A DNA stretch of 64,000 nt from Corynebacterium sp. 13CS0277 (GTDB taxonomy: Bacteria; Actinomycetota; Actinomycetes; Mycobacteriales; Mycobacteriaceae), in contig NZ_PPDL01000009.1 of assembly GCF_002994655.1 (NCBI RefSeq), positions 62,001-126,000 on the forward strand, written 5' to 3'. Every line of letters begins with the position of its first letter. The stretch's first letter is position 1. Both the position numbers and the translations under genes were made by a program. This document shows, one piece after another, positions 3,915-30,470 of the stretch. The notes below the pieces were generated by a model, which was given only the letters and a program-made list of their open reading frames with translations, searched no databases and was not told where the DNA came from.

Positions 3915-4628
3915 CTACCAGGGTGTCGACAGATTGGCTAGACGAGACCAGGCCCCACCTGTACGCCACCACACCAGTGCGCCGACCGCGAGAGCACCAA
4001 GAGCCCAGGCAACAGACCACGGATCGAACCACGGGTCCGTCCCGGCATGGTAGGTGTACGGCATGCCGCGGCCGCTGGGAACGACATAGCAGAGGCCGAC
4101 ACAGCCGGCAATCACGAGGGCCGCGGCAGCACTCCCCCACACGCGCCCCAACAGCGGGATGAGGATCAAAGCGCACCCCATGGTGAACACAGTGTTGCTC
4201 ACCAGCTGCTCGAGGTGCACCCACCCCTTCTCATAGATATTGGCTGCCACAAACCCCTTGCGCAGCCGGTGGGAATGCACCACCACACCGATGGCCAGCA
4301 CAAAGACTGCGGCCTGGCCCAGCAGGACCACGACGAGGTTGCCCCACCGCGCAGCGGGGCGCGCAAGGTCGTATTCCCGCAGCCGCGGCACACTGACGGC
4401 CGCGACGCCGATCGCGGCGGCGGACAGCACGAGCCCGGAGCCGTACCACAAAATCCGGTACGTGTTGTGCCCGAGAGTAAAAGTCAGTGGCCCTAAGGCA
4501 AAGCTCAACACCGCGGCGAGGACGACAATGAACAGGAGCTGCGCCCAGGGGAACACCGTGAGCGGCGGCCAGAGCCGAGCCGTGCGCGGGACACCACTCT
4601 GAGGTGTGGGATGTGCGGTGACACTCAT
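3915..4628 (-). CDS. polytopic membrane protein of an ABC transporter cluster
   Basis: Unknown 237-residue membrane protein. Hydrophobic stretches suggest about six transmembrane segments, with the first after about 25 residues. A conserved family was not recognised. The start ATG overlaps the stop of the preceding permease gene as ATGA, and that gene in turn overlaps an ABC ATPase gene. The most likely role is therefore a second membrane component or accessory protein of that transporter. It ends 110 bp before secY and is not part of the ribosomal operon by content. Confidence 0.7.
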   Translation of the reverse strand: MSVTAHPTPQSGVPRTARLWPPLTVFPWAQLLFIVVLAAVLSFALGPLTFTLGHNTYRILWYGSGLVLSAAAIGVAAVSVPRLREYDLARPAARWGNLVVVLLGQAAVFVLAIGVVVHSHRLRKGFVAANIYEKGWVHLEQLVSNTVFTMGCALILIPLLGRVWGSAAAALVIAGCVGLCYVVPSGRGMPYTYHAGTDPWFDPWSVAWALGALAVGALVWWRTGGAWSRLANLSTPW

Positions 4629-5914
4629 CGGACTGTTGCCACCTCCGAGTCGGCGATCGTACACCCGCGCAGCTGCTCACCGCGGTTGTGAACACTGTCG
4701 AGGACACGCTCACCGTCGGTTCCCGCGGGGACGTCCTCGCCTGTGGACAATGCAAGCAAAGCACTCATCACCCGGGCGTTGGCAGTGGGCTCCTCACCCA
4801 CCAGCGCGGCGTAGCAGGCGTCCCTGCCCGTCACCTCATTCACGAGCACCTCGAGGGGGCCACGCGCATGCCGCTCAATACTGACGAAAGACACAGGCCG
4901 CTCCTCAGCGCCGGGAACCCCACCGCTGATCAGCGCGTAGCTCGCCAGCGTGCGGGGTGCCGACAGCGCCTCCGGGCCGATCACATCCGCCAGCCGGTTC
5001 ACGCTCTCGACCTCGCGACGCACGAGAAGCTCGTCGGCCCGAGGCCCACACACTTTCACGGGCACCGTCGACGCGTCGCGGCAGACAACCTTCACATCGG
5101 TAGCGGTCGCCTGCACCCCAACAAGAGGCAGGGCAAGCGCGACGAGCGCGCCGACCACGGCACCAATCAGCGGCACCCGCGGGCCCTTGGTGTAGGAATC
5201 ACCGACGCTGAAAGCAGCCCACATGCAGCAGGCAGCGAGGGCAGCCGACACGCCAAACTTCAGCGCTACGCTGGGCCCACCCATGGCACTACTGACAGCG
5301 AACGTGGGGCCGACCAAGCCGAGGATCCACAGCGCAGTGACGCTTGAGCTATAGCAAGCCACTGTGGCCACAACGACAGCGCCGGCCGCGGCGACAACGA
5401 AGGCGGGGAATTTCACACGCGCTGACAGCACCCCAAGCAGCGTGCCGAAACCAGCTGCGAGGAGCACAAATCCGCTACTCCGAGCGATGAGGCCAACCAG
5501 CCACCAGGGATCAGCGAGGCCCTGCGACCACAGTGGGACGACGGCGACGACGGAGATCACCAGGACGCTCACAACGGCGGGGACGAGGATGCTCGCCGCC
5601 GCAGCCCCGATTCGTTGCGCCACGCTCCACCGGGCGGCAGGCAAGGCCAACAAAGACCCCGGTGCCAGTGTGCTCACGCTGAGCGTTATGCACAGCTGCA
5701 TGACAACCGCCACAATGGTCGTGGCGTACATCACCGTGGTGTCCGCCTGTCCCCAGGTCCGATTGTCGTACGGCAGGCCCATCAGCTGCCATACCGTGAA
5801 CCCAAGGACACCGAGGACACTCAGCACAAGGAACGTGCCCGCCGGCGGCAGCGCCGCTGGTGGAAGAATCCGCCGGGAGGACGGCGTGGAGTGGTGTCGT
5901 CGTGCCCCACTCAT
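4625..5914 (-). CDS. ABC transporter permease with extracytoplasmic C-terminal domain
   Basis: A 429-residue membrane protein. The first about 260 residues contain roughly eight hydrophobic segments. The last about 160 residues (from VCRDASTVPVKVCGPRADEL onward) are hydrophilic with four Cys residues and probably lie outside the membrane, possibly disulfide-bonded. The start overlaps the stop of the ABC ATPase gene by four bases and the stop overlaps the next membrane gene by four bases, so all three are almost certainly co-translated. The ATPase partner suggests an ABC-2-like export or membrane-remodelling role; the substrate is unknown. The permease call rests on context more than on sequence motifs. 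Confidence 0.7.
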   Translation of the reverse strand: MSGARRHHSTPSSRRILPPAALPPAGTFLVLSVLGVLGFTVWQLMGLPYDNRTWGQADTTVMYATTIVAVVMQLCITLSVSTLAPGSLLALPAARWSVAQRIGAAAASILVPAVVSVLVISVVAVVPLWSQGLADPWWLVGLIARSSGFVLLAAGFGTLLGVLSARVKFPAFVVAAAGAVVVATVACYSSSVTALWILGLVGPTFAVSSAMGGPSVALKFGVSAALAACCMWAAFSVGDSYTKGPRVPLIGAVVGALVALALPLVGVQATATDVKVVCRDASTVPVKVCGPRADELLVRREVESVNRLADVIGPEALSAPRTLASYALISGGVPGAEERPVSFVSIERHARGPLEVLVNEVTGRDACYAALVGEEPTANARVMSALLALSTGEDVPAGTDGERVLDSVHNRGEQLRGCTIADSEVATVR

Positions 5915-6666
5915 AGCACGTGGCTTCCGACGATGGTCGAGTAGTACGTCTCGAAACGCGTCGCGAGGCTATCCCCACCGGAATCGGGGATCCGACTGGA
6001 CAGCTCGTCGAAAGTTCCCCGGAACTTCAACACACCGGCAGACAGCACGGTCAGCGAAGCTCCAAGCATCGTGACGTCTTCCGTGAGGTGGGTCGACATG
6101 AGCACGCAGTGCCGCTCCCCCAGCGCGGAGATGAGGTGACGCATCTGCAAGCGCGCCTGCGGGTCAAGGCCCACGGTCGGCTCATCAAGCAGCAACACTG
6201 CCGGATCACCGACCAATGCGGTCGCGAAACCGACCCGTCGAAGTTGGCCACCAGAAAGCTCACCGATGCGGGAGCCGAACCGGTCGGCAAGCTCGACCCG
6301 CTCCAGCGCATCCATCACCTGGGCGTCACGCTGGGCACGGGGAACACCCTGCGACCACGCAACATACCCCAACACGTCGGCCACGCGATGCCTGTGGGGC
6401 AACCTGATGTGCTGCGGAACGAGACCGACGAGGGTGCGGTACTCGTCGATGCGGGACTTCGTCAGCGGCACTGAATTGATCTGCACAGCACCGGACGTCG
6501 CCGGCAACAGGCTCGCAATGATGGACATCAGCGTGGTTTTGCCACTACCGTTAGGCCCAATCAGCGCGTGGACCCCCACAGGATAGGTGGCCGTGAAGCT
6601 GCGGAGAACTTCACGAGACTGACCGCCCCTTGAAAAGGTTTTGGATACTCGGTCAAGGTCGAGCAC
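5911..6666 (-). CDS. ABC transporter ATP-binding protein
   Basis: A 251-residue cytoplasmic ATPase that drives the transporter encoded directly downstream. Walker A GPNGSGKTT, a Q-loop region (LVGLVPQHIRLP), signature LSGGQLRRV, Walker B VLLLDEPTVGLD and the switch His (STHLTED) are all present. The start is a GTG (VLDLDRVSKTF...) preceded by a purine-rich GAGAGGGGAG; upstream in-frame starts lack this. First gene of a three-gene unit linked by ATGA overlaps. The drug- or peptide-export type of ATPase domain fits best. Confidence 0.9.
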   Translation of the reverse strand: MLDLDRVSKTFSRGGQSREVLRSFTATYPVGVHALIGPNGSGKTTLMSIIASLLPATSGAVQINSVPLTKSRIDEYRTLVGLVPQHIRLPHRHRVADVLGYVAWSQGVPRAQRDAQVMDALERVELADRFGSRIGELSGGQLRRVGFATALVGDPAVLLLDEPTVGLDPQARLQMRHLISALGERHCVLMSTHLTEDVTMLGASLTVLSAGVLKFRGTFDELSSRIPDSGGDSLATRFETYYSTIVGSHVL

Positions 6667-19804: not shown

Positions 19805-21094
19805 CTACTCGTAGCGCAGCGCCTCGATGGGGTTGAGCTTCGCGGCCTTGTTCGCCGGGTAGTAGCCGAAGAACAGGCCGATGCCGATGGAGAACGCGAG
19901 CGCAACCACCACGCCGAGCAGCGGCGGGAACACGAGCACGCCCATCGCCAGGCCGCCGCCGGTGCCGATGATGCCGCCCAGCAGCACGCCGATGACGCCG
20001 CCGAAGAAGCAGATGATCATGGCCTCGACGACGAACTGGGTGCGGATCGCGCCGCGGGTGGCACCCAGTGCCTTGCGGACGCCGATTTCGCGGGTGCGTT
20101 CCGTGACGGTCACCAGCATGATGTTCATGATGCCGATGCCGCCGACGAGCAGGGAGATGCCGGCGATGAAGGAGATGACCATGCTCACGGTGGTGAGAAC
20201 CTTGTTGATCTGGCCGAGTTCGTTGGAGAAGTCCTGCGCCTTGGCCTGCACGTCCGGGTCGTTCGCCCAGGTGGTATCGAGGAAGGCCTGCAGGTCGGCG
20301 GCGAACGCCGCCTCATCGTCCTTATTCGCGGCGCGCAGCGTCATCGAATCAAACACGGGGGCCTTGCCGAGGACCTCGAAGCCGGCGGTGTAGGGAACGT
20401 AGAAGTTCTTCTCCTCGTAGCTGCCGATGAGTCCGCCTTCCGGCGGGGCGAGGATGCCGACGATTTCGAATTCGCCGGAGCCTTTGCCGTCGAACTCCAC
20501 CAGGGAGCCCAGCGCTTTCTGCGGGTCGCCGTCAAACATGTCGGTGAGCAGCACGTTGGGGATGACGGTCACCGCCTTCGTGCCAAAGACGTCCGCTTCG
20601 GTGAGGCCGCGACCGTAGGCAATCTTGTCGCTGGTGAGCTCCAGGTAGTCGGCGTTGACGCTCTTCATGGTGACCTGCTGCGGGCGGCCCACGAGGGCGC
20701 CGGCCGCACTCACGGCGGTGAGCTCGCCACTGTCGAAGGTGTCCGCGCCGAGGGAGATCCCGGCCACGCGGGGGCCGAAGTATTCGCGGGCGTGCTCCAC
20801 GATGTCCTCGGTGATCTTCGAGGAGTCATCGAAGGTGTCGACCATTTGGTAGGAGGCAGAGGAGTTCAAGTCCGCGTCGTCGCCGCTGGCGCGGCCCACG
20901 AGCCGCACCTGCAGGTCGTTGATGCCCAGCCCGGCGAGCTGTTCGGAGGTTTGTTTCTTCAACCCGGCGCCGAGGGTGAGGATCGCGATGACGGAGGCGA
21001 TGCCGATAATGACGCCGAGCAGCGTGAGGAAGGAGCGCATCTTGTTCGAGCGCAGGCTCGCCCACGCCAGGGCTACTGCTTCAGCAATACTCAT
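19805..21094 (-). CDS. MacB/YknZ-type ABC transporter permease
   Basis: A 429-residue protein with the MacB layout: one membrane helix near the N-terminus (about 18-45), a large extracytoplasmic domain (about 46-290) and three C-terminal helices. Family motifs are SLRSNKMRSFLTLLGVIIGIASVIAIL at the start and the MNIMLVTVTERTREIGVRKALGA segment, with GYYPANKAAKLNPIEALRYE at the end. Works with the ATPase and adaptor encoded upstream to move a substrate (drug, peptide or lipid) from the membrane outward. Three bases after the ATPase gene. Confidence 0.92.
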   Translation of the reverse strand: MSIAEAVALAWASLRSNKMRSFLTLLGVIIGIASVIAILTLGAGLKKQTSEQLAGLGINDLQVRLVGRASGDDADLNSSASYQMVDTFDDSSKITEDIVEHAREYFGPRVAGISLGADTFDSGELTAVSAAGALVGRPQQVTMKSVNADYLELTSDKIAYGRGLTEADVFGTKAVTVIPNVLLTDMFDGDPQKALGSLVEFDGKGSGEFEIVGILAPPEGGLIGSYEEKNFYVPYTAGFEVLGKAPVFDSMTLRAANKDDEAAFAADLQAFLDTTWANDPDVQAKAQDFSNELGQINKVLTTVSMVISFIAGISLLVGGIGIMNIMLVTVTERTREIGVRKALGATRGAIRTQFVVEAMIICFFGGVIGVLLGGIIGTGGGLAMGVLVFPPLLGVVVALAFSIGIGLFFGYYPANKAAKLNPIEALRYE

Positions 21095-21097
21095 GTG

Positions 21098-21892
21098 TCA
21101 GCTCCCCTGGGTGCCAGTGTGGGACCCCACCTGGGCCTGCACGGCCGGGGGCAGGGTGAGGCCGGGCAGCAGCGCGCCTTCGACGCGCCCGTCGACCATG
21201 GTGATGATGCGGCCGGTTTCTTCCGCCAATTCCGGGTTGTGGGTGATGAACACGATGGTGGCCCCCATGTCACGGTTGAGGGTGTGGAAGAGGTCCATCA
21301 CCATCCGGCCCGTCTGGGAGTCGAGCGCACCGGTCGGCTCATCCGCGAGCAGCAGCGCGGGCGAGTTCGCGAGCGCCCGGGCGATCGCCACACGCTGCTT
21401 CTGCCCGCCGGACAGTTCGTTGGGCAGGTGCTTGCGGCGGTCCGCCATGCCGACCAGGTCGAGGAGTTCCTCGGCGCGGGCGCGGCGCTGTTTCGCCGGG
21501 ACACCTGCGTACATGAGCGGCATCTCGACGTTTTTGGTGGCGTCGATGCGGCCAATCAAGTTGAAGTTTTGGAACACGAACCCGATCATTTGGGAGCGGT
21601 AGTGCGCGAGCTCATCGTCGTCGGCGGCGAACATGTCTTTGCCTTCGAGGAAGTAGCTGCCGGCATCACCCCGGTCGAGGAGACCGATGATGTTCATGAG
21701 CGTGGATTTGCCGGAGCCGGAGGCACCGACGATGGAGACGAATTCGCCGGCGGCGACGTCGAGGTCGACCCCGGGCAGGATGGTCAGTTCGTTTTCGGTG
21801 CCGACGTTGAAGGTGCGGGTAATGCCGCGCATCGTCACCAGTGCGTCCTGCTGCGGGGAGCTGGTGTGGGTGGGGGGAGATGTCGAAGTCAC
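21098..21892 (-). CDS. MacB/YknY-type ABC transporter ATP-binding protein
   Basis: A 264-residue ATPase of the LolD/MacB class. Walker A GASGSGKST, VFQNFNL Q-loop, signature LSGGQKQRV, Walker B LLLADEPTGALD and the switch His in ITHNPEL are complete. The start is a GTG following AAAGGACG; the first about 18 residues are Ser/Thr/Pro-rich. The about 25-residue C-terminal tail after the ATPase core is also unusual in being Pro/Gly/Ser-rich. Middle gene of an adaptor-ATPase-permease operon. Confidence 0.92.
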   Translation of the reverse strand: MTSTSPPTHTSSPQQDALVTMRGITRTFNVGTENELTILPGVDLDVAAGEFVSIVGASGSGKSTLMNIIGLLDRGDAGSYFLEGKDMFAADDDELAHYRSQMIGFVFQNFNLIGRIDATKNVEMPLMYAGVPAKQRRARAEELLDLVGMADRRKHLPNELSGGQKQRVAIARALANSPALLLADEPTGALDSQTGRMVMDLFHTLNRDMGATIVFITHNPELAEETGRIITMVDGRVEGALLPGLTLPPAVQAQVGSHTGTQGS

Positions 21893-21992
21893 GGTGGGTG
21901 AAACGTCCTTTTCTCGACGTCGAGGGGCGCCGACGAGGAGGGGTGCGGTCAGGGGGCGGCGACGCCCGGTGCGTGAGTGTTCCCGGGGGCGT

Positions 21993-23651
21993 TTAAGGCT
22001 GTGCGGGTTCGGCGTCGAGCGGGGGCAGCGTCACGGGCGTGCCCGCCAGCGGCTTGGCGCTGGTGGCGTTGGTGAGCACGATGTCGCCGGCGCCGAGGCC
22101 GGCAGTGATGGCGACTTCGGTGTCGTTGCCCTCGCCGAGGGTGACGTCGCGGGCTTCGACGAGGGTGTGGCCGTCGCGCTCCACGGCGACGTAGACGACC
22201 GGGTGCTCGCCGTCGGTGTCGATGGCGGTGCGGGGCACCGCGAGCACATCCTTCGCGCTGGAGGTGATGATGCGCAGCTTGGCGCTGCCGCCCAGCCGGA
22301 GGCCCTCGGGGGAGCCGTCGATGGTGATCTCGACGGGGAACTGGGCTTTCTTCGCCTCGGCGGTGCCTTCGCCGGTGGGCTTGGCGGCGACGGTGCTCAC
22401 CTTATGAACGGTGCCGGTGAATTCCTTCGCCCCAGTCGACGGGGTGGTGAAGGTGACTTTCTGGCCGGGCTTGACGCCGGCGGCGTCGGATTCCCGCAGA
22501 GTGGCGGTGATCTTCAGCTGCTTGTCGTCGGCGATGGTGAGCAGGGTTCCGGTGGCGGGCTTGCCTTGTTCGGCGACGACCTCGGTGACGACGCCGCCCA
22601 GGGGTGCGGTGACGGTGGAGCGGTTGATGTCCATCTTCAGGCCTTCGGTGCCTGCGCCGCTGACGGTGCGGGTGATGTTGGCGTTGCGCTCAGCCTGGTC
22701 GACGGCGGTCGCGCGGGTGGCGAGCTGCTGCTGCACGCTGAGTTCTGCGGCCTGGTAGGCGCGGTCGGCGTCGTTTTTCGCGGCGAAGGCGGCAGCCACG
22801 CTGCGCTGCGCGTCCGCGAGCGACTTGTCCACCTCGGCGAGGGCGTCAGTGTAGGCGGCCTGCTGCTTGGCGAGGTTGTCGACGGCCTGGTCCATGCCGT
22901 TGGCGGATTCGAGGTTCGCCAGCGTGTCGGTGATGTTGACGGGGATGCGCGCGGCACCGGCCTCTTCCGTGCCGGCGAGTGCCGTCGCCAGCGTCTGGTT
23001 GGCGGCGCGACCGGCGGCAATACCGGCGCTGATGACCTGGTTGCGGGCGTCATCGACGGCCGCGGCACCCGCCACGAGCTGCTGGTTGCGGCCCAGCTGG
23101 GCGCGCTGCTGCGCGAAGTCGAAGTTCTGCTGCGCCTCCGTGAACGCCTCCTCGGCCTGCCGCTGCGCGGCGGCCGCCGAGTTGAGCTCCGCGTTGAGGC
23201 CCGCGTCCAGGGTGGCGCGCAGCTGGTTGTACTGGTTCTGCGCGTCCTCGACCTGGTTCATCGCCCCGGTCAGGCTCTGGGCTTCGGAGGCGAGTTTTTG
23301 GTCGAGTTCCTGCTGCAGGTTGGAGACGTCGATGCGGGCGACCTCCTGGCCGGGGCCCACCCGGTCGCCGACGGCGACGTTGAGGGCCTCCACCGGGCCG
23401 CTCAAGGTGGTGAAGAGGGTGACGCTGCGGGCGGACTCGATGGTGCCGTTGGCGGGGATACGGCTGGCCACGTCCTTCTGGCCGACGACCCGCACGTCGC
23501 TCGCGAGCAGCGCGGGCGCCGAGTCGCCCGTCAGGGCGTAGAACCCGCCGCCGCCGAGCAGCAGCAGCGCGGCAGCACCAGCGGCGATGAGGGCACCTTT
23601 GCGGCGCGGTTTCTTCGTGCGGGACGAAGCGGAGGAGGAAGCATCGGACAT
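21993..23651 (-). CDS. MacA/YknX-type membrane-fusion (adaptor) protein
   Basis: A 552-residue HlyD-family protein. An N-terminal membrane helix (about 20-40) is followed by a lipoyl/barrel-sandwich half (VTLFTTLSGPVEALNVAVGDRVGPGQ), then a very long Ala/Gln-rich helical hairpin (about 110-330), the second half-motif (VTAPLGGVVTEVVAEQGKPA) and beta-barrel domains. The hairpin is longer than in typical YknX. In Gram-positive bacteria such adaptors assist a MacB-type permease, here encoded downstream. The ATG follows AAGGGTG. Confidence 0.9.
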   Translation of the reverse strand: MSDASSSASSRTKKPRRKGALIAAGAAALLLLGGGGFYALTGDSAPALLASDVRVVGQKDVASRIPANGTIESARSVTLFTTLSGPVEALNVAVGDRVGPGQEVARIDVSNLQQELDQKLASEAQSLTGAMNQVEDAQNQYNQLRATLDAGLNAELNSAAAAQRQAEEAFTEAQQNFDFAQQRAQLGRNQQLVAGAAAVDDARNQVISAGIAAGRAANQTLATALAGTEEAGAARIPVNITDTLANLESANGMDQAVDNLAKQQAAYTDALAEVDKSLADAQRSVAAAFAAKNDADRAYQAAELSVQQQLATRATAVDQAERNANITRTVSGAGTEGLKMDINRSTVTAPLGGVVTEVVAEQGKPATGTLLTIADDKQLKITATLRESDAAGVKPGQKVTFTTPSTGAKEFTGTVHKVSTVAAKPTGEGTAEAKKAQFPVEITIDGSPEGLRLGGSAKLRIITSSAKDVLAVPRTAIDTDGEHPVVYVAVERDGHTLVEARDVTLGEGNDTEVAITAGLGAGDIVLTNATSAKPLAGTPVTLPPLDAEPAQP

Positions 23652-23983: not shown

Positions 23984-25153
23984 TCAGGGGGCGGCGTAGT
24001 CGATGCGGATGTGCGCGAGCGCCCGGTCGAGCACCACCTGCGGGTCCTGCCCGCCGGTGGCCCGGGCGACGAGGCAGCCGATGCGGCCGGTGGAGTCCGT
24101 GGCCGTGGCGATCGTGTCCCCGGGGGCCAGGTCCACGCTGCCGGCAATGATGCCGGGGCTGCGCAGCGCCTCCTGCACCCCGTGGATGTGTGCCACGGTG
24201 CCGGGCCGGGCGGTGAGATAACGGACCGCGGCCCGCACTCCCTGCTGTTGACCAGGGAATGGTGGCGTAGGCACGCCCGCCGCGGCGGCGACGAGGGGGC
24301 GGAAGATGTTGTCGCCGTGGACTGCGCTGACGAGGAGGTGGATGAAATCCCCGCCGGGGCGGACGTGGGCCTCCCCGAGGATGATCCGCCCGTCCGGGGT
24401 CACCCAGCCTTCGGCGTGGACGATGCCGGCCCGCAGGCCCCAGGCGCTCACCGCGCGGCGCAGCGCCGCAACAATGGCGGCCTCACTGGCGGCGACCCGC
24501 CGGGCGGGGTACTCGTGGCCGAGCTCGACGATGCCCGCGGCATCGAGGTGTTTGTCGGTGACGCCGAAGACGGTGAGCTGCCCGTCGTGGAGGAAACCTT
24601 CCACGGAGAATTCCTGCCCCTCCACGAAGCTTTCGACGAAGGAGCCGGGGGTGGCGGCGAGTGCCCGGCGGGCGCCGGCGGCGTCGTGGTGGATGCTCAC
24701 CCCGCGGCTGCCGGATCCTTCCACGGGTTTCACCACCCAGGGGCCGGGTACGTCCTCCGGGGCGTGGCCGGTCAACGGCTGGTCGAGCCCTGCGGCCCGC
24801 AGGACTGCGCGCGCCCGGTCTTTTTTACGGATGCAGGCGACGGCATCCGGGTCGTTGCCGCGCGGGTCGAGCCGTGCCGTATCGAGGGTGTGGTCTTCCC
24901 GGAAGCACACGTACCCCAGGTCGCCGGCGGGCAGCGGCGCGCAGGACCCGCCGCCGGCGACGGCGGCACGCACCGCATCGCTGCTGAGCTCCACGAGGCG
25001 GACGCCAAGGTCCGCGGCGGCGGCCCGCAGCATCCCGAGCTGGTGTTGGCCGTGGGCCATGCGGGGCTGCGCGCCGACGACGACCACGGTGCGGGGCCCG
25101 GTCGGGGGTGCGCCCGTGGGCGCACCGGGTGCGGGCGTCGGGTGGGTACTCAT
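23984..25153 (-). CDS. single-module ATP-grasp ligase
   Basis: A 389-residue cytoplasmic enzyme of the ATP-grasp superfamily, most like the L-amino-acid ligase/carbamoyl-phosphate-synthase-like type. Visible active-site elements: VVKPVEGSGSRG (Lys142 and the Gly-rich loop 146-151), a second nucleotide-binding region FVEGQEFSVEGF, HAEG with Glu248, and GEAHVRPGGDF with Glu261 and Arg265 as metal and phosphate ligands. It would activate a carboxylate as acyl-phosphate and join it to an amine. The ATG was chosen for GGAG just upstream. 50 bp after the two-module ligase, so it is almost certainly in the same operon. Substrates are unknown. Confidence 0.8.
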   Translation of the reverse strand: MSTHPTPAPGAPTGAPPTGPRTVVVVGAQPRMAHGQHQLGMLRAAAADLGVRLVELSSDAVRAAVAGGGSCAPLPAGDLGYVCFREDHTLDTARLDPRGNDPDAVACIRKKDRARAVLRAAGLDQPLTGHAPEDVPGPWVVKPVEGSGSRGVSIHHDAAGARRALAATPGSFVESFVEGQEFSVEGFLHDGQLTVFGVTDKHLDAAGIVELGHEYPARRVAASEAAIVAALRRAVSAWGLRAGIVHAEGWVTPDGRIILGEAHVRPGGDFIHLLVSAVHGDNIFRPLVAAAAGVPTPPFPGQQQGVRAAVRYLTARPGTVAHIHGVQEALRSPGIIAGSVDLAPGDTIATATDSTGRIGCLVARATGGQDPQVVLDRALAHIRIDYAAP

Positions 25154-25203
25154 TGCTCCAATCCTCCTCGGGTGGGTGGTGCTGACAGTGCCGCGGCGAC
25201 AGC

Positions 25204-27705
25204 TCACGGGGTAGCGGCTGCGGGGGTATCGCTGTCGACGACGATGTCGACGGCGCGGAGCCGCGCCACCTCCTCCGCCAGCTCCTCGTGGCTGCCCGCC
25301 ACGAGGATGACTTCCGCGATGATGGGGCTGATGGTGTCTGCGGGCGGCTGCGTGATGCGGTCACCGGGGTGGGCGTGGTGGATCACCTCCACGATGGCGG
25401 GGCTCGGCGGCAGGGGGCCGACGCTCCGGAGCACCCCGGTCTCCGCCGTGTGGAGCTTGACGGTGGCGGCGACATAGCCGTCGCGGGGGCGCGCCCCGCT
25501 GGGGGTGCTACCGGTAGCGATGCGGATGACGTCCTCGGCAAAGGACACCCCCGTCGTCAGGGGCACGAGGTGGGAGGCGATGAAGTCGCCGCCGGGGCGG
25601 GCGGCGATCTCCACGAGGCGGACCCTACGATCGGGAGTGCGGAAGAACTCCAGGTGGAAGGCGCAGTTGTCGATGCCGGTGGCCCGCACCGTGGTCTCCA
25701 CGAGTGGCCACACGTCCTGCTCAATGCCGGGTGTTGCGGAGGGAAACACCTGGCCGATTTCGAGCCGGTGGACCGGCTCGGTCGTCTTATCCGTCACTCC
25801 GAGCAGGTGGATGCGGCCGTCTGCGACGTAGCCTTCGGCGGAGTGCTCCGTGCCGGTGAGGAGTTCCTCGATCACCATCGGCCCCGGCCATGCGGCCCAG
25901 GCGGCGCGGGCGTCCGCCGGCGAGTCGACGAGGTGGAAGCCCCGGGAGCCGGACGAGTCCACCGGTTTCATCACACAGGGGTACGCCCACGCGGCATCGC
26001 CCAGGATCTTATCCAGCGTGTCGGCGCTGTCCACGAGGCGGCAATCCGGCACTGCCTCGGGGTCGAGTGCGCGGACCGCTTGACGCATGGCGTACTTGTT
26101 GCGTGCCTTGTGGGCGGCCTCCGGCGTAGGCCCGGGCAGGCCACGCTCGTGGGCGACGCGGGCCACCATGGCGACGTCGCGGTCGCTGAAGGTGACGACC
26201 CCGCGGATGTCGTAGCGGCGCTCCAGGTCTGCGAGGGCAGCCCGCACAGCCTCCGCATCGGCAGTATCAACGCGCACGACGTCGACTACACCGGCGGGCT
26301 GCGTCGCCCCGTCGGTGAGCAGCACCGCGCCCGGGTGCGCGGCGAATGCTTCCCCGTATTCCACGGGGGTGCGGCGGTGGTTGAAGTACACCACCACCTC
26401 GGTGCTCGTGCTGAATCGCACCCCGGCGGCCAGGCGAAAGGCCTCGGCAGCGCTGTCGGCCTCCACGAAGCCGGCCCGCTCCCAGGAGGAGGTCACCGGC
26501 CGCAGCACCGTCCCCGGCTGGGCGGTGATGACCGCCCGCCCGGAGGGGTCGTGGACTGCGGTGACGATGCCGGGCGGGCCGAAGAGGAAACGGATGGCGG
26601 CCTCCCCGTCGGCTGTGCGGGGCAGGTCGACGGGCAGCCCGCACAGGGCCCGGGCCCACGCCTCGTAGAGGTTGAATCCCCACGCCCGGCTGATGAGCCG
26701 GGCGATGCGGTCGCCCGGCGGGCGGCCGGCGCACTCCACGGGGGTCGTGCCAATGAATTCGGCGTGGAGCAGCACCGTGGAGTGCTGGTCCGCGAGCTGC
26801 AGCGCATCAATCAGGTGCCGCATGGCGGCCTCCACCTCCGGGTAGGTGCGCGCCACGGTGTGCCCGAGTTCCACGACCCCGGCGGTGGTTTTCTCCGTGA
26901 CGTTCATCCAGCGGGGCGTGCCGTCGATGACGAGGCATTCGACGGAGTACTCCTGCCCGGTGAGGAGCTCTTCACACATGTAGGTGCCGTGGGTGTCGCG
27001 GGAGGCGTCCTGCAGCGGCTCCGCCGCGGAGGTGGTGTGCTCCCAGGCGGCCGGGATGTCCTCCGGGGTGTGGATGAGGGACACCCCCACACTGGCCTGC
27101 CGGTCCGCCGGCTTGAGCACGCAGGGCGGGGGCAGCAGGTCGTCGACGCTGTGCACCTGCACCCACCGTGGACCGCCGACGTGCGTACGGAACTGCAGCT
27201 TGTTGGTCAGCGCGCCCACGGTCGCCGCGGCCTGCGCGGCAGTAGCCTGGGTCTCTGCCAGCACGCCGGGGGCCACGCACCGCAGGCCGAGTAGTGCTGC
27301 CAGGGTGTTGGCGGGGGCCACGGCGTACTCGAGCCCGGGGAGCACCGCAGCCACCGCGGTCCCCCGGCCGGCGTCGGGGTACTCCTCCCGCAGCTGCGCG
27401 GCCAAGCGGCGGACGTCGGTGTCGTCGCGCTGGTACTCGCACCACATCCACCGCTCAATGAGGTCGAGCCCCTGGCTGCGCGCCGCTAACCCCTTCTTGG
27501 TGAACAAGGCTTCTTCTTCGGCGACGATGACCCGGAACGGGGTGTCGGCCGCCTGCAGCATCTCGAGGGCTTCGTGGTTGTACCCGAGCATGACCACGAG
27601 CAACGGATCAGACCCCGCAGCCGAGGCAGCACCAGATGCAGCAGTGGGCATGGCAGTGGACGCGGGGGACGCCCCGGCACTGGTGGGTGTGGTGGGAGGA
27701 CACAT
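25204..27705 (-). CDS. two-module ATP-grasp ligase
   Basis: An 833-residue protein with two complete ATP-grasp modules in tandem. Module 1 (about 35-435) has LKPADRQASVGVS (Lys198), CEELLTGQEYSVE, HAEF (Glu316) and VECAGRPPGDRI (Glu324, Arg328). Module 2 (about 435-833) has MKPVDSSGSRGF (Lys580), EELLTGTEHSAEG, HLEF (Glu686) and VEIAARPGGDFI (Glu699, Arg703). Metal-binding Glu and Lys residues are kept in both, so both may be active. Known relatives make dipeptides or short peptides (BacD-like L-amino-acid ligases). The ATG has CAGGAG upstream; a longer frame upstream has no such site. The first about 32 residues are a Pro/Thr/Ala/Ser-rich tail. Confidence 0.82.
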   Translation of the reverse strand: MCPPTTPTSAGASPASTAMPTAASGAASAAGSDPLLVVMLGYNHEALEMLQAADTPFRVIVAEEEALFTKKGLAARSQGLDLIERWMWCEYQRDDTDVRRLAAQLREEYPDAGRGTAVAAVLPGLEYAVAPANTLAALLGLRCVAPGVLAETQATAAQAAATVGALTNKLQFRTHVGGPRWVQVHSVDDLLPPPCVLKPADRQASVGVSLIHTPEDIPAAWEHTTSAAEPLQDASRDTHGTYMCEELLTGQEYSVECLVIDGTPRWMNVTEKTTAGVVELGHTVARTYPEVEAAMRHLIDALQLADQHSTVLLHAEFIGTTPVECAGRPPGDRIARLISRAWGFNLYEAWARALCGLPVDLPRTADGEAAIRFLFGPPGIVTAVHDPSGRAVITAQPGTVLRPVTSSWERAGFVEADSAAEAFRLAAGVRFSTSTEVVVYFNHRRTPVEYGEAFAAHPGAVLLTDGATQPAGVVDVVRVDTADAEAVRAALADLERRYDIRGVVTFSDRDVAMVARVAHERGLPGPTPEAAHKARNKYAMRQAVRALDPEAVPDCRLVDSADTLDKILGDAAWAYPCVMKPVDSSGSRGFHLVDSPADARAAWAAWPGPMVIEELLTGTEHSAEGYVADGRIHLLGVTDKTTEPVHRLEIGQVFPSATPGIEQDVWPLVETTVRATGIDNCAFHLEFFRTPDRRVRLVEIAARPGGDFIASHLVPLTTGVSFAEDVIRIATGSTPSGARPRDGYVAATVKLHTAETGVLRSVGPLPPSPAIVEVIHHAHPGDRITQPPADTISPIIAEVILVAGSHEELAEEVARLRAVDIVVDSDTPAAATP

Positions 27706-27760
27706 CAAGCAACAACTCCTGTGATGAACGACTGCGAAGGCACGGGCGCGCACAGCCGCG

Positions 27761-27812
27761 GGCGGAAGAAGGAAGTTAAGAAGAGGAAAAGAGGTAAAGA
27801 CGACGACGGCGG
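27761..27812 (-). promoter_or_regulatory. pyrimidine-rich leader before the two-module ligase
   Basis: On the transcribed strand this stretch is almost only C and T, 56-108 nt before the start codon. One of several such tracts in the window; possibly a Rho-loading or other regulatory leader. Confidence 0.35.
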
Positions 27813-27895
27813 TTACCGCGCGTGACGCCACTGTGACGCAAGGTGCGTGCGGCGTACGCGCTTGTCCGGCTACCGGTGACAGAAGAGGCGGCTGC

Positions 27896-29047
27896 TTAGG
27901 CGGGTGCCTGCACCGCCAAGGATCGTCGACCCACCAGCGCTGCGACGAGGAGGAGAGCGACGCAGCCGGCCGCAATCCACACCGGGAGGACCGCCACACC
28001 GAGGGCCATGCCGGTGCCTTCCCCGAGGGCGACCACCAGCTGGCGGCCCTGGACGGCACTCATGGACGTCGGGAACGGCATCGACAGCATGGTGGCGTCG
28101 ACCATGGGGATGAACAAGGCCTCCGCGAAGGAAAACACGACGATGGCGATGAAGGGCTGCACCGCAATGAGGAGCACCGCGAGGACGAACACCAGTGGGG
28201 AGGCGAGCAGCTGGTAGCCGTGGCTGATACCCCGGGCGCGCGCCCGCGAAGAGACGGCCGTCGCGACGGGTTGCAGCACGATGACCGCGATCGCATTAAT
28301 TGCGTACACCGCGCCCCGCAGCAGCGGATTGTCGTAGGCGTCGTGCACCGCGACCGCGATGGAGGAGAACAGCTGCCCGTAGAGGATGTAGCCGGCGAAC
28401 ACGGCCGCAGCGACCGCGAGGACCGCCCGCGAGCGGAACGACCCCAACACATCCCGCACGAACGACGGTCGCGTCTGGCTGGGGGTGGGGCGGGCGTGGG
28501 TGCCCAGCACGAGCACCGGAACGGCTGCCGCGAGCAGGTAGCAGCAGCCCGCGCCGAGGAAAATGACCGATTGGCCGTGGCCGAAGACGATGTTGCCCAC
28601 GACGGGCCCGACGCCGGCCGCCACGTTGACCGCGACGTTGATAGCACTGAACACCGCGAGCTTGGCGTCCGCGTCAGGCACAGTGTCAGCCACGTACAGC
28701 CGCACGGCGGAGCCGTTGCAGTTGATACCCGCGCCGGCGAGCATCAACGCCACCACGACAACTACTGCGGGGACGTCCATGCTGAGCAGCAGGAAGGAGC
28801 ATCCGGCGAGCAGTAGGCCGACGGTCATCGACCAGGCGTAGGGCACCCGGGACAACACCGAGCCCAGCAGCAGCACACTGGCGCGCACGGACACCCCGAA
28901 GGCTGCCAGCGCACATGCCGAGTACACAGGGCCGTAGCTGTCCGGCAGCCACACCGCGAGCAGCGGCATGATGGCGAAGTAGCCCAGGTGTGACAGGAAG
29001 TAGTCCGCGACGAAGGCGCGGGTGGTGCGGGCACGCAGCGTGGCCAT
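27896..29047 (-). CDS. MFS transporter (candidate peptide exporter)
   Basis: A 383-residue membrane protein with about twelve hydrophobic segments and the two-halves layout of the major facilitator superfamily. It resembles the exporter group that travels with ATP-grasp ligase genes (for example BacE with BacD in bacilysin producers); this comparison is from context and general features, not from a diagnostic motif. It lies 190 bp upstream of the two-module ligase in the same direction, so export of the ligase product, and self-protection, are the likely roles. The ATG follows AGAAGGAGGGCGG. Confidence 0.8.
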   Translation of the reverse strand: MATLRARTTRAFVADYFLSHLGYFAIMPLLAVWLPDSYGPVYSACALAAFGVSVRASVLLLGSVLSRVPYAWSMTVGLLLAGCSFLLLSMDVPAVVVVVALMLAGAGINCNGSAVRLYVADTVPDADAKLAVFSAINVAVNVAAGVGPVVGNIVFGHGQSVIFLGAGCCYLLAAAVPVLVLGTHARPTPSQTRPSFVRDVLGSFRSRAVLAVAAAVFAGYILYGQLFSSIAVAVHDAYDNPLLRGAVYAINAIAVIVLQPVATAVSSRARARGISHGYQLLASPLVFVLAVLLIAVQPFIAIVVFSFAEALFIPMVDATMLSMPFPTSMSAVQGRQLVVALGEGTGMALGVAVLPVWIAAGCVALLLVAALVGRRSLAVQAPA

Positions 29048-29395: not shown

Positions 29396-30157
29396 CTAGA
29401 CGAGCTTGAGGAAGTAGCTGCTCTGCACCACGTCGCCTACCCGCAGATCGGACTCGGGCGCGAAATCGTAGCCGACAGTGACGACGAGGTACTCCACCTC
29501 GGCGGGCACCGCAACGTGGAAGCTGGTGTTGCACGCATCGAATTCCGCGCGTTGCGGATCCTGGCCCAGCATCTCCACGAAGGCGGGTGCGCTCTCACCG
29601 GGGGTGGGGCGCTCAGCAAAGCCGAAGAGGGTGGCCTCCGCAATGGCATAGCGGGCGCGAGAGGCAAGGCTGAAGACCTCGGCGCGGGGCACTTCCGCCC
29701 AGCGGGGCGAGGACGAATCATCACGATCCAGCTCAGTCCCCCACTCGACGACGTCAGCCACGACGGGTGCGGCATCCCCCACCCGCAGGCCGGGCACCGC
29801 ATCCGTCCATGCGGGATCCACCGCACTGGCGGACTCCTCCCCTTGCGCGCACTCGGCGAAGTTCTCCGCCGCCGTCACGTCGGCGAGCATCTCGCCACCC
29901 CAATCGCGATCGAGTGGGTTCATCGGTTCAGCCTCCCATTCTGGGCCACCACCGGCCCCTGGTGCGTAGATCGTGCCCCCGGGCGGCGTCGGCAAGAGTT
30001 CCGCGTAGGCGCAGCCAGAAACCGTGGCAACACAGCAGAGTGCTGCCACCACGCCCAGCATCCGCCGCGACGCACCCGTACGCGTACCCGACGCCGGGCG
30101 CCGGCTGCATGCGTCAGCGGGCAGAGGTTCACCGGGGAAGAATTCATAGGTCGCCAC
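29396..30157 (-). CDS. hypothetical lipoprotein
   Basis: A 253-residue protein not recognised as a known family. A basic n-region and hydrophobic core end in the lipobox VSGC (Cys49), so the mature protein is expected to be lipid-anchored outside the membrane. The mature part is acidic and Pro/Ala-rich at first, then has alpha/beta-like segments (VSFHVAVP-like region and VEYLVVTVGYDF). The GTG start chosen has GGAAAGG about 11 bases upstream; an earlier GTG four codons before lies directly on that sequence. It stands between the ligase cluster and rplE with gaps on both sides. Confidence 0.65.
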   Translation of the reverse strand: MATYEFFPGEPLPADACSRRPASGTRTGASRRMLGVVAALCCVATVSGCAYAELLPTPPGGTIYAPGAGGGPEWEAEPMNPLDRDWGGEMLADVTAAENFAECAQGEESASAVDPAWTDAVPGLRVGDAAPVVADVVEWGTELDRDDSSSPRWAEVPRAEVFSLASRARYAIAEATLFGFAERPTPGESAPAFVEMLGQDPQRAEFDACNTSFHVAVPAEVEYLVVTVGYDFAPESDLRVGDVVQSSYFLKLV

Positions 30158-30470
30158 GGCGGGATTCACCTTTCCAGTGGGCTCGCCCCACAGGCCGCAT
30201 CGTCGACCGCCTGCGAGGTCAGCGCGGTGGCGCTGACGCCGCACACTCTAACACCACCCCTCGCCTGCTCCCCACGCGCGAGGGACCCGCCACCCCCGCC
30301 GCTTCCCCCTTGAACCTGCCCGAACGCGCCGGCGTACTACCCCACGTGCCACGCCACGCACGCAACGCCCCGCCCCTCGCGCCAACACACCCCAGGCACG
30401 ACGAAACCCCGGCGCACACTGTGCAGCCGGGGCCGAATCTCCTCACCTCATGGGGTGAGTGACGAAGTAT
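30158..30470. other. intergenic region rplE-lipoprotein
   Basis: 313 bp. Contains the rplE terminator and, next to the stop codon, a second small stem (CTCACC/GGTGAG, 30443-30459). No gene seen. Confidence 0.5.
30404..30432 (-). terminator. intrinsic terminator of rplN-rplX-rplE
   Basis: Stem CCCCGGC-GCAC / GTGC-a-GCCGGGG with one bulged base and a 3-nt loop, followed on the minus strand by TTTCG. It starts about 38 nt after the rplE stop codon. Confidence 0.6.

Follow-up and report, generated by a model that had tools for sequence, protein, structure and literature searches.

What do one transporter and two adjacent ATP-grasp ligase genes of Corynebacterium sp. 13CS0277 make together, and from which building blocks? 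The genes form a minus-strand cassette at 23984..29047 of a 64,000-nucleotide stretch of contig NZ_PPDL01000009.1 (hereafter the window, to which all positions refer unless another locus is named), in the order major facilitator superfamily (MFS) gene, double ATP-grasp gene, single ATP-grasp gene. The original prediction, made from the sequence alone, had placed one MFS and two ATP-grasp genes here, which the reading frames and the Pfam matches bear out. Our analysis suggests, with a probability of about 0.7, that the locus encodes those steps of a hydrazine-peptide pathway that assemble and export the product, in which a short peptide would be built independently of nonribosomal peptide synthetases (NRPS), and that the arm forming the hydrazine is missing from it.

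The double protein (833 amino acids, 25204..27705, minus strand) consists of module M1 (about residues 35-431, 26413..27705) and module M2 (about residues 432-825, 25204..26412), and module M3 is the single protein of 389 amino acids (23984..25153, minus strand). With PF13535 (ATP-grasp_4) the double protein scored 97.8 bits in total over two stretches and the single protein 52.4 bits over one stretch, above the curated cut-off of 27 bits in both cases. These three matches are the only ones in the 3.06-Mb genome at E <= 0.001. The LAL_C2 model, with a cut-off of 29.4 bits, was matched by the M3 protein at 57.9 bits. Where the modules are separate genes, as in genome G579 (another family of the same class), the LAL_C2 scores are 70.8, 43.7 and 65 bits for M1, M2 and M3, respectively. 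Each module had been said to keep its Lys, metal-binding Glu pair and Arg, and a loss of metal ligands on alignment had been named as grounds for abandoning the idea. Alignment with other ligases confirmed these residues in all three modules (K198, E316, E324, R328 in M1; K580, E686, E699, R703 in M2; K142, E248, E261, R265 in M3) as in 53 of the 53 aligned ligases, and no ligand is lost in any row. The C-terminal motif reads ECAGRPPGD in M1 as against EIAARPGGD in M2 and EAHVRPGGD in M3, with the ligands kept in each.

The proposed kinship to L-amino-acid ligases is supported by PF13535 and by the profiles of M1, M2 and M3, for each of which the top solved match was the L-amino-acid ligase BL00235. 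BL00235 is also the top fold match of M2; the fold-search rows (VIA-align) for the double protein, whose AlphaFold2 model has a mean predicted local distance difference test score (pLDDT) of 83.2, mostly cover residues 433-825. When the double protein was searched as a single sequence, 4dim, labelled phosphoribosylglycinamide synthetase, was matched at 2.4e-09 versus 4.9e-06 for BL00235. The equivalog models were far from being reached: the double protein scored 29.1 bits with BacD (NF053745, cut-off 850) and 32.4 bits with PurT (TIGR01142, cut-off 502), and the dapdiamide A synthase DdaF model (NF041595, cut-off 840) gave 37.3 and 16.8 bits. The profile search that had been advised against PF13535 and BacD-like families was thus positive for the former and far below cut-off for the BacD equivalog. 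Firm grouping with a housekeeping family, the other outcome that would have told against the idea, was not observed; BL00235 comes first for the profiles, and 4dim comes first when the double protein is searched alone. A housekeeping ATP-grasp identity (PurT, biotin carboxylase or carbamoyl-phosphate synthetase (CPS)) is disfavoured by the equivalog scores and by the profile and fold matches, despite the lead of 4dim. The three modules are very probably functional amide-forming ligases.

In a tree of 53 ligases, M1 (15 rows, 100/99), M2 (11 rows, 100/100) and M3 (8 rows, 100/99) formed three separate clades, each of which unites Corynebacterium modules with ligases of other bacteria. This tree leaves aside M3 of G747, the further ligases of loci L061-L064 and L102-L114, M1 of several loci from a second M1 search, and P0005, P0006, P0017, P0018, P0020, P0021, P0025, P0026 and P0029-P0031. 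The double ligase occurs in 2 of 242 Corynebacterium genomes, the window's and that of C. striatum, and the M3 alignment, when run against the genus, matched 7 of the 242 at E <= 1e-15, strongly only in the same two. In C. striatum, the MFS gene, the double ligase and the single ligase stand in the window's order at 47-58% identity, in a different chromosomal setting adjoining Pks13/AccD-like genes (by reading of the frames); the cluster of its double ligase in the protein database (P0002) comprises 326 sequences. Elsewhere the modules are separate. In Streptomyces sp. ISL-94, the MFS gene, M1 and M2 are separate genes overlapping end to end, followed by a gene resembling methionyl-tRNA synthetase (MetRS), and no M3 was seen on this contig, which begins at the MFS gene. 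M2- and M3-like genes are adjacent on a 7-kb contig of a Chloroflexi metagenome-assembled genome, M1, M2 and M3 are three consecutive genes in G579, and the order is M2, M3, MFS, M1 in G771 and likewise in G747 of the same genus, in which M3 is split over two frames. Relatives of the three modules from the same clades thus co-occur, and four other loci (C. striatum, G579, G747 and G771) were found to carry the complete set. In C. striatum and Streptomyces ISL-94, these ligases are likewise adjoined by homologues of the MFS gene (50% and 38%, respectively), and MFS genes resembling that of ISL-94 adjoin M1 in G747, G771 and G848. The double protein looks like a fusion because its halves fall in two clades and are separate genes elsewhere, and the three ligases appear to have a tendency to be kept together.

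Related ligases were also met in other surroundings. The MetRS-like gene adjoins the M2 ligase both in Streptomyces ISL-94 (L032 3910-5535) and in t39 (L033 11146-12759); the ISL-94 protein scored 297 bits against a MetRS equivalog cut-off of 551, and may be a synthetase put to a new use or a copy that confers resistance. In Streptomyces sp. SID3343 (L031 4634-12466), a gene of the phosphoenolpyruvate mutase family, an aminotransferase, a ligase, a methylaspartate mutase E chain, an M2-type ligase and an MFS gene form a possible phosphonopeptide cluster. Another Corynebacterium (G031, L025 9042-16776) has a different multi-ligase cluster, in which three ATP-grasp genes of one module each stand with an MFS gene and with genes for an FAD-NAD(P) protein and a polysaccharide-deacetylase-like protein.

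The comparison of neighbourhoods in related genomes, which had been recommended as a check, set the window apart. Directly upstream of the MFS gene of C. striatum are a 4Fe-4S ferredoxin (L024 3570-3908) and a protein of 520 amino acids without a Pfam or NCBIfam match. Relatives of both are found in G579, G747 and G771. The pair is therefore present in all four of the other loci with all three modules, which were found through ligase searches and not through the pair itself, and it is absent from the window. The residues surrounding the heme in KinJ are C468, R497, M498, N501, H504, H541, R551 and R570 (passages of PMC12154649). At identical spacing, all eight are present in the relatives from G579, G353, G534, G342 and G747 and seven of eight in that of G771, in a scoring that leaves aside G260 and G336, which the search pattern missed. 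The C. striatum protein has four of the eight at exact spacing and the other four in aligned columns, its loop being shorter; the structure model of the KinJ-like protein has a pLDDT of 42.6. Based on the heme-pocket residues, the ferredoxin neighbour and the literature, the 520-residue protein and its relatives fit the KinJ/FzmP/NegJ family.

According to passages of a 2025 preprint (PMC12154649), KinJ and its ferredoxin reduce nitrite and make the hydrazine L-Hzs from aspartate, and the KinJ/FzmP family uses nitrite and an amino acid to form hydrazines, with CreDE-type enzymes as the nitrite sources in some clusters. The same passages count Corynebacterium among the genera with KinJ and mention that many KinJ clusters contain ATP-grasp genes, but they single out no cluster from Corynebacterium by name. 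In G771, the locus additionally carries a nitrosuccinate lyase above the curated cut-off, an FAD protein, a methylaspartate-mutase E chain and a B12-binding protein. The KinJ-like match of G579 (L060 about 4069-6066) contains one in-frame TGA, with all the heme residues after the stop, and for this reason the copy may be broken, misread or affected by a sequencing error. The KinJ and M3 copies are intact in C. striatum and G771. One metagenome contig (28,257 bases) seemingly unites relatives of M2, M3 and KinJ (P0004, P0010, P0034), as judged by equal contig size only. KinJ-like and ferredoxin clusters without a match to any of the three ligases were seen as well (L095-L098); close relatives of CreE and nitrosuccinate lyase occur in two of them (L097, L098), and each of the four has lyases that are more distant.

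In the window genome (69 contigs, completeness rated 99.99%), searches for KinJ found no relative, one of them giving a single chance-level match (E 0.02), and a search of the 242 Corynebacterium genomes gave one match, that of C. striatum alone. Neither the ferredoxin nor KinJ had a match in the window at E <= 1e-6. The statement that no amino-acid-modifying enzyme is next to the cassette is true for the window. It is unlikely that the cluster was cut off by the contig end, since the nearer end is ~47 kb away and the assembly is 99.99% complete. The MetRS-like query returned one open frame of 613 amino acids in the window genome (34% over the best piece), which is taken for the housekeeping enzyme.

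Are M1-type ligases in general signs of hydrazine chemistry? Besides KinJ-like genes, the hydrazine synthetase sets of the azaserine and s56-p1 type, made up of an N-hydroxylase, a cupin and a MetRS-like protein, were counted as a marker. AzaEFG is named in passages of PMC12154649. Among 23 M1 loci outside the window, KinJ-like genes are present in 5, the N-hydroxylase/cupin/MetRS-like set in 2, a MetRS-like gene alone in 1, an N-monooxygenase alone in 1 and none of these in 14. The idea that M1 is a hydrazine marker was rejected accordingly, 14 of the 23 lacking any marker in the stretch examined, some stretches being short or beginning at a contig end. The sample covers 6 of the 17 non-own genomes of one search and 17 of the 28 of a second (2 already included). 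In G856 (L113 10315-18804) and G604 (L114 2676-11192), an M1-type ligase and two further ligases stand beside genes for a Lys/Orn N-monooxygenase, a cupin, an FAD oxidase and a MetRS-like protein, the families having been checked in L113. These two loci seem to combine this kind of ligase with another, unrelated hydrazine-synthetase system. None of the azaserine-type set was found in the window itself; N-hydroxylase and cupin were not searched for in the whole genome.

By analogy with L-amino-acid ligases, each module would bind ATP-Mg and activate a carboxylate as the acyl phosphate, which is then attacked by an amine. One bond per module would give three bonds and a product of tri- or tetrapeptide size from up to four small carboxylic or amino-acid units; that three distinct ligases are found as a set fits a product of three or four units. 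The fused M1M2 and the free M3 would assemble the peptide and the adjacent MFS protein would export it. Without KinIJ, the parent amino acid likely stands in for the hydrazine-bearing unit, and the units may be ordinary amino acids, or one of them may be supplied by unlinked genes. As the genome searches found no relative of KinJ, the window product is likely a hydrazine-free relative of hydrazine-bearing peptides. That the full product of the three-ligase family bears a hydrazine is put forward tentatively, at somewhat less than even odds, the broken frames in G579 and G747 being weighed against the intact copies in C. striatum and G771.

The Bacillus dipeptide ligases BacD/YwfE and BL00235 share with the window modules the ATP-grasp fold, the catalytic Lys, the Glu pair and the Arg, and an MFS gene also adjoins bacD (bacDE). 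The window differs from BacD/YwfE in having two fused modules and a third, and in scores far under the BacD equivalog cut-off. Four residues past the Arg, the window modules have an Asp where BacD has Trp332 (the mutant in the title of 3wo1; position by alignment). For the proposed mechanism, the closest worked example by analogy would be phosphonoalamide biosynthesis, in which several free-standing ATP-grasp ligases build a short peptide without an NRPS, one making a dipeptide and a second joining it to phosphonoalanine (passages of PMC11867202). PnaB and PnaC, likened here by description and not by sequence, are two ligases with phosphonoalanine, while the window has three modules and no phosphonate gene in the cassette. 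The likeness to KinJ/FzmP/NegJ clusters lies in the four other three-module loci (C. striatum, G579, G747, G771), where M1, M2 and M3 are accompanied by genes for a ferredoxin and a KinJ-like protein; the window differs, having no KinJ relative at the locus or in the genome. The azaserine-type sets are linked to this ligase type through G856 and G604.

Several observations weigh against the proposed assembly and export role. The double protein scores 23.3 bits with LAL_C2, under the cut-off, 4dim precedes BL00235 in its single-sequence search and takes second place with the profiles of M2 and M3, and the double ligase is confined to two genomes of the genus. The transport direction of the MFS protein is assumed. 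The C. striatum KinJ has only half of the heme residues exactly spaced, two of the four comparison loci have broken frames (KinJ of G579, M3 of G747), and M1-type ligases are not generally tied to hydrazine chemistry. A role of the ligases in housekeeping or the envelope (cell-wall peptide, siderophore, osmolyte or a purine-type reaction) would agree with the 4dim match, with weak PRK02186-like and purT-like similarity and with a fold common to purine enzymes and carboxylases; given the patchy distribution (2/242), the PurT, BacD and DdaF scores and the first place of the L-amino-acid ligase by profiles and by the M2 fold, we consider it quite improbable. That the fused protein acts like a CPS, its two ATP-grasp halves passing on one tunnelled substrate, is very improbable indeed: CPS large chains do top the Foldseek ranking over the whole length, yet at a root-mean-square deviation of about 23-24 Å, so that only separate domains match, and the halves belong to two clades, each having a gene of its own in Streptomyces ISL-94 and G579.

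The absence of the hydrazine arm may itself be read in other ways. The window strain could still make a peptide with an N-N bond, the hydrazino unit coming from genes elsewhere or being taken up. Its intact ligases group with those beside KinJ-like genes, and the source of the unit could change because M1-type ligases adjoin a second set of hydrazine-forming appearance (G856, G604); in genome searches that covered KinJ and the MetRS-like protein, the failure to find a KinJ relative and the sole MetRS-like frame, taken for the housekeeping enzyme, make this improbable. The chance is similarly small that the cassette is a remnant whose ligases became useless after the loss of the hydrazine arm and are decaying. 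The partner genes are present in the four other three-module loci and not in the window's, and decay may occur in the family because two of these four have broken frames, but the window cassette retains three long intact frames, strong ribosome-binding sites and all the catalytic residues. A hydrazine-free assembly and export cassette is the reading we prefer.

The position and the minus-strand order of the genes agree with those first given; the long open-reading-frame starts at 28059 (double) and 25207 (single) are unlikely and were replaced by later ATGs with ribosome-binding sites. For the double protein the most likely start is ATG 27705 with AGGAG upstream, TTG 27708 being possible, and for the single protein ATG 25153 with AGGAGG upstream, both ~10 bases downstream of a strong Shine-Dalgarno sequence. 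The MFS transporter, the predicted product exporter (383 amino acids, 27896..29047, minus strand), scored 65.3 bits with Pfam MFS_1. The 190-bp gap between it and the double ligase (27706..27895, minus strand) shows no clear promoter or terminator in the sequence and one weak stem in a scan in which the number of stems in the region was not above that of shuffles. Rfam at the gathering cut-off gave 0 matches in the window and anti-phage defence models gave 0 matches for four proteins. A lipoprotein-like gene at 29396-30244, without a family match, was left out of the cassette, as it was matched in its own genome alone (1 of 41 searched). The MacA/MacB-type exporter genes downstream (19805-23651) were not counted as members either; the adaptor has matches in 20 of the 41 genomes, own included, and the frames around the C. 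striatum ligases showed none.

Such ligases are already known, as are KinJ clusters; no description of the set of three ligases, of the fusion or of a branch without KinIJ was found in the titles and abstract openings of open-licence literature. The sequences point, with rather less confidence than an even bet, to an actinobacterial family of hydrazine peptides in which KinIJ would provide a hydrazino acid and three dedicated L-amino-acid ligases would assemble the peptide around it; C. striatum would make one of these, and the window lineage, with its fused double ligase, an N-N-free twin. ATP-grasp ligases offer simple access to small peptides and are easily reconstituted. The presence of the three-ligase set in Corynebacterium and in three further genomes, from other genera of the same class, indicates a peptide family for which we found no description and which includes C. 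striatum, a human-associated species. The link to the KinJ heme enzyme gives a concrete guess at an unusual building block, and a genome without the KinJ arm is a built-in comparison. If this is true, the two lineages would be a natural armed and unarmed pair for probing the role of the hydrazine.
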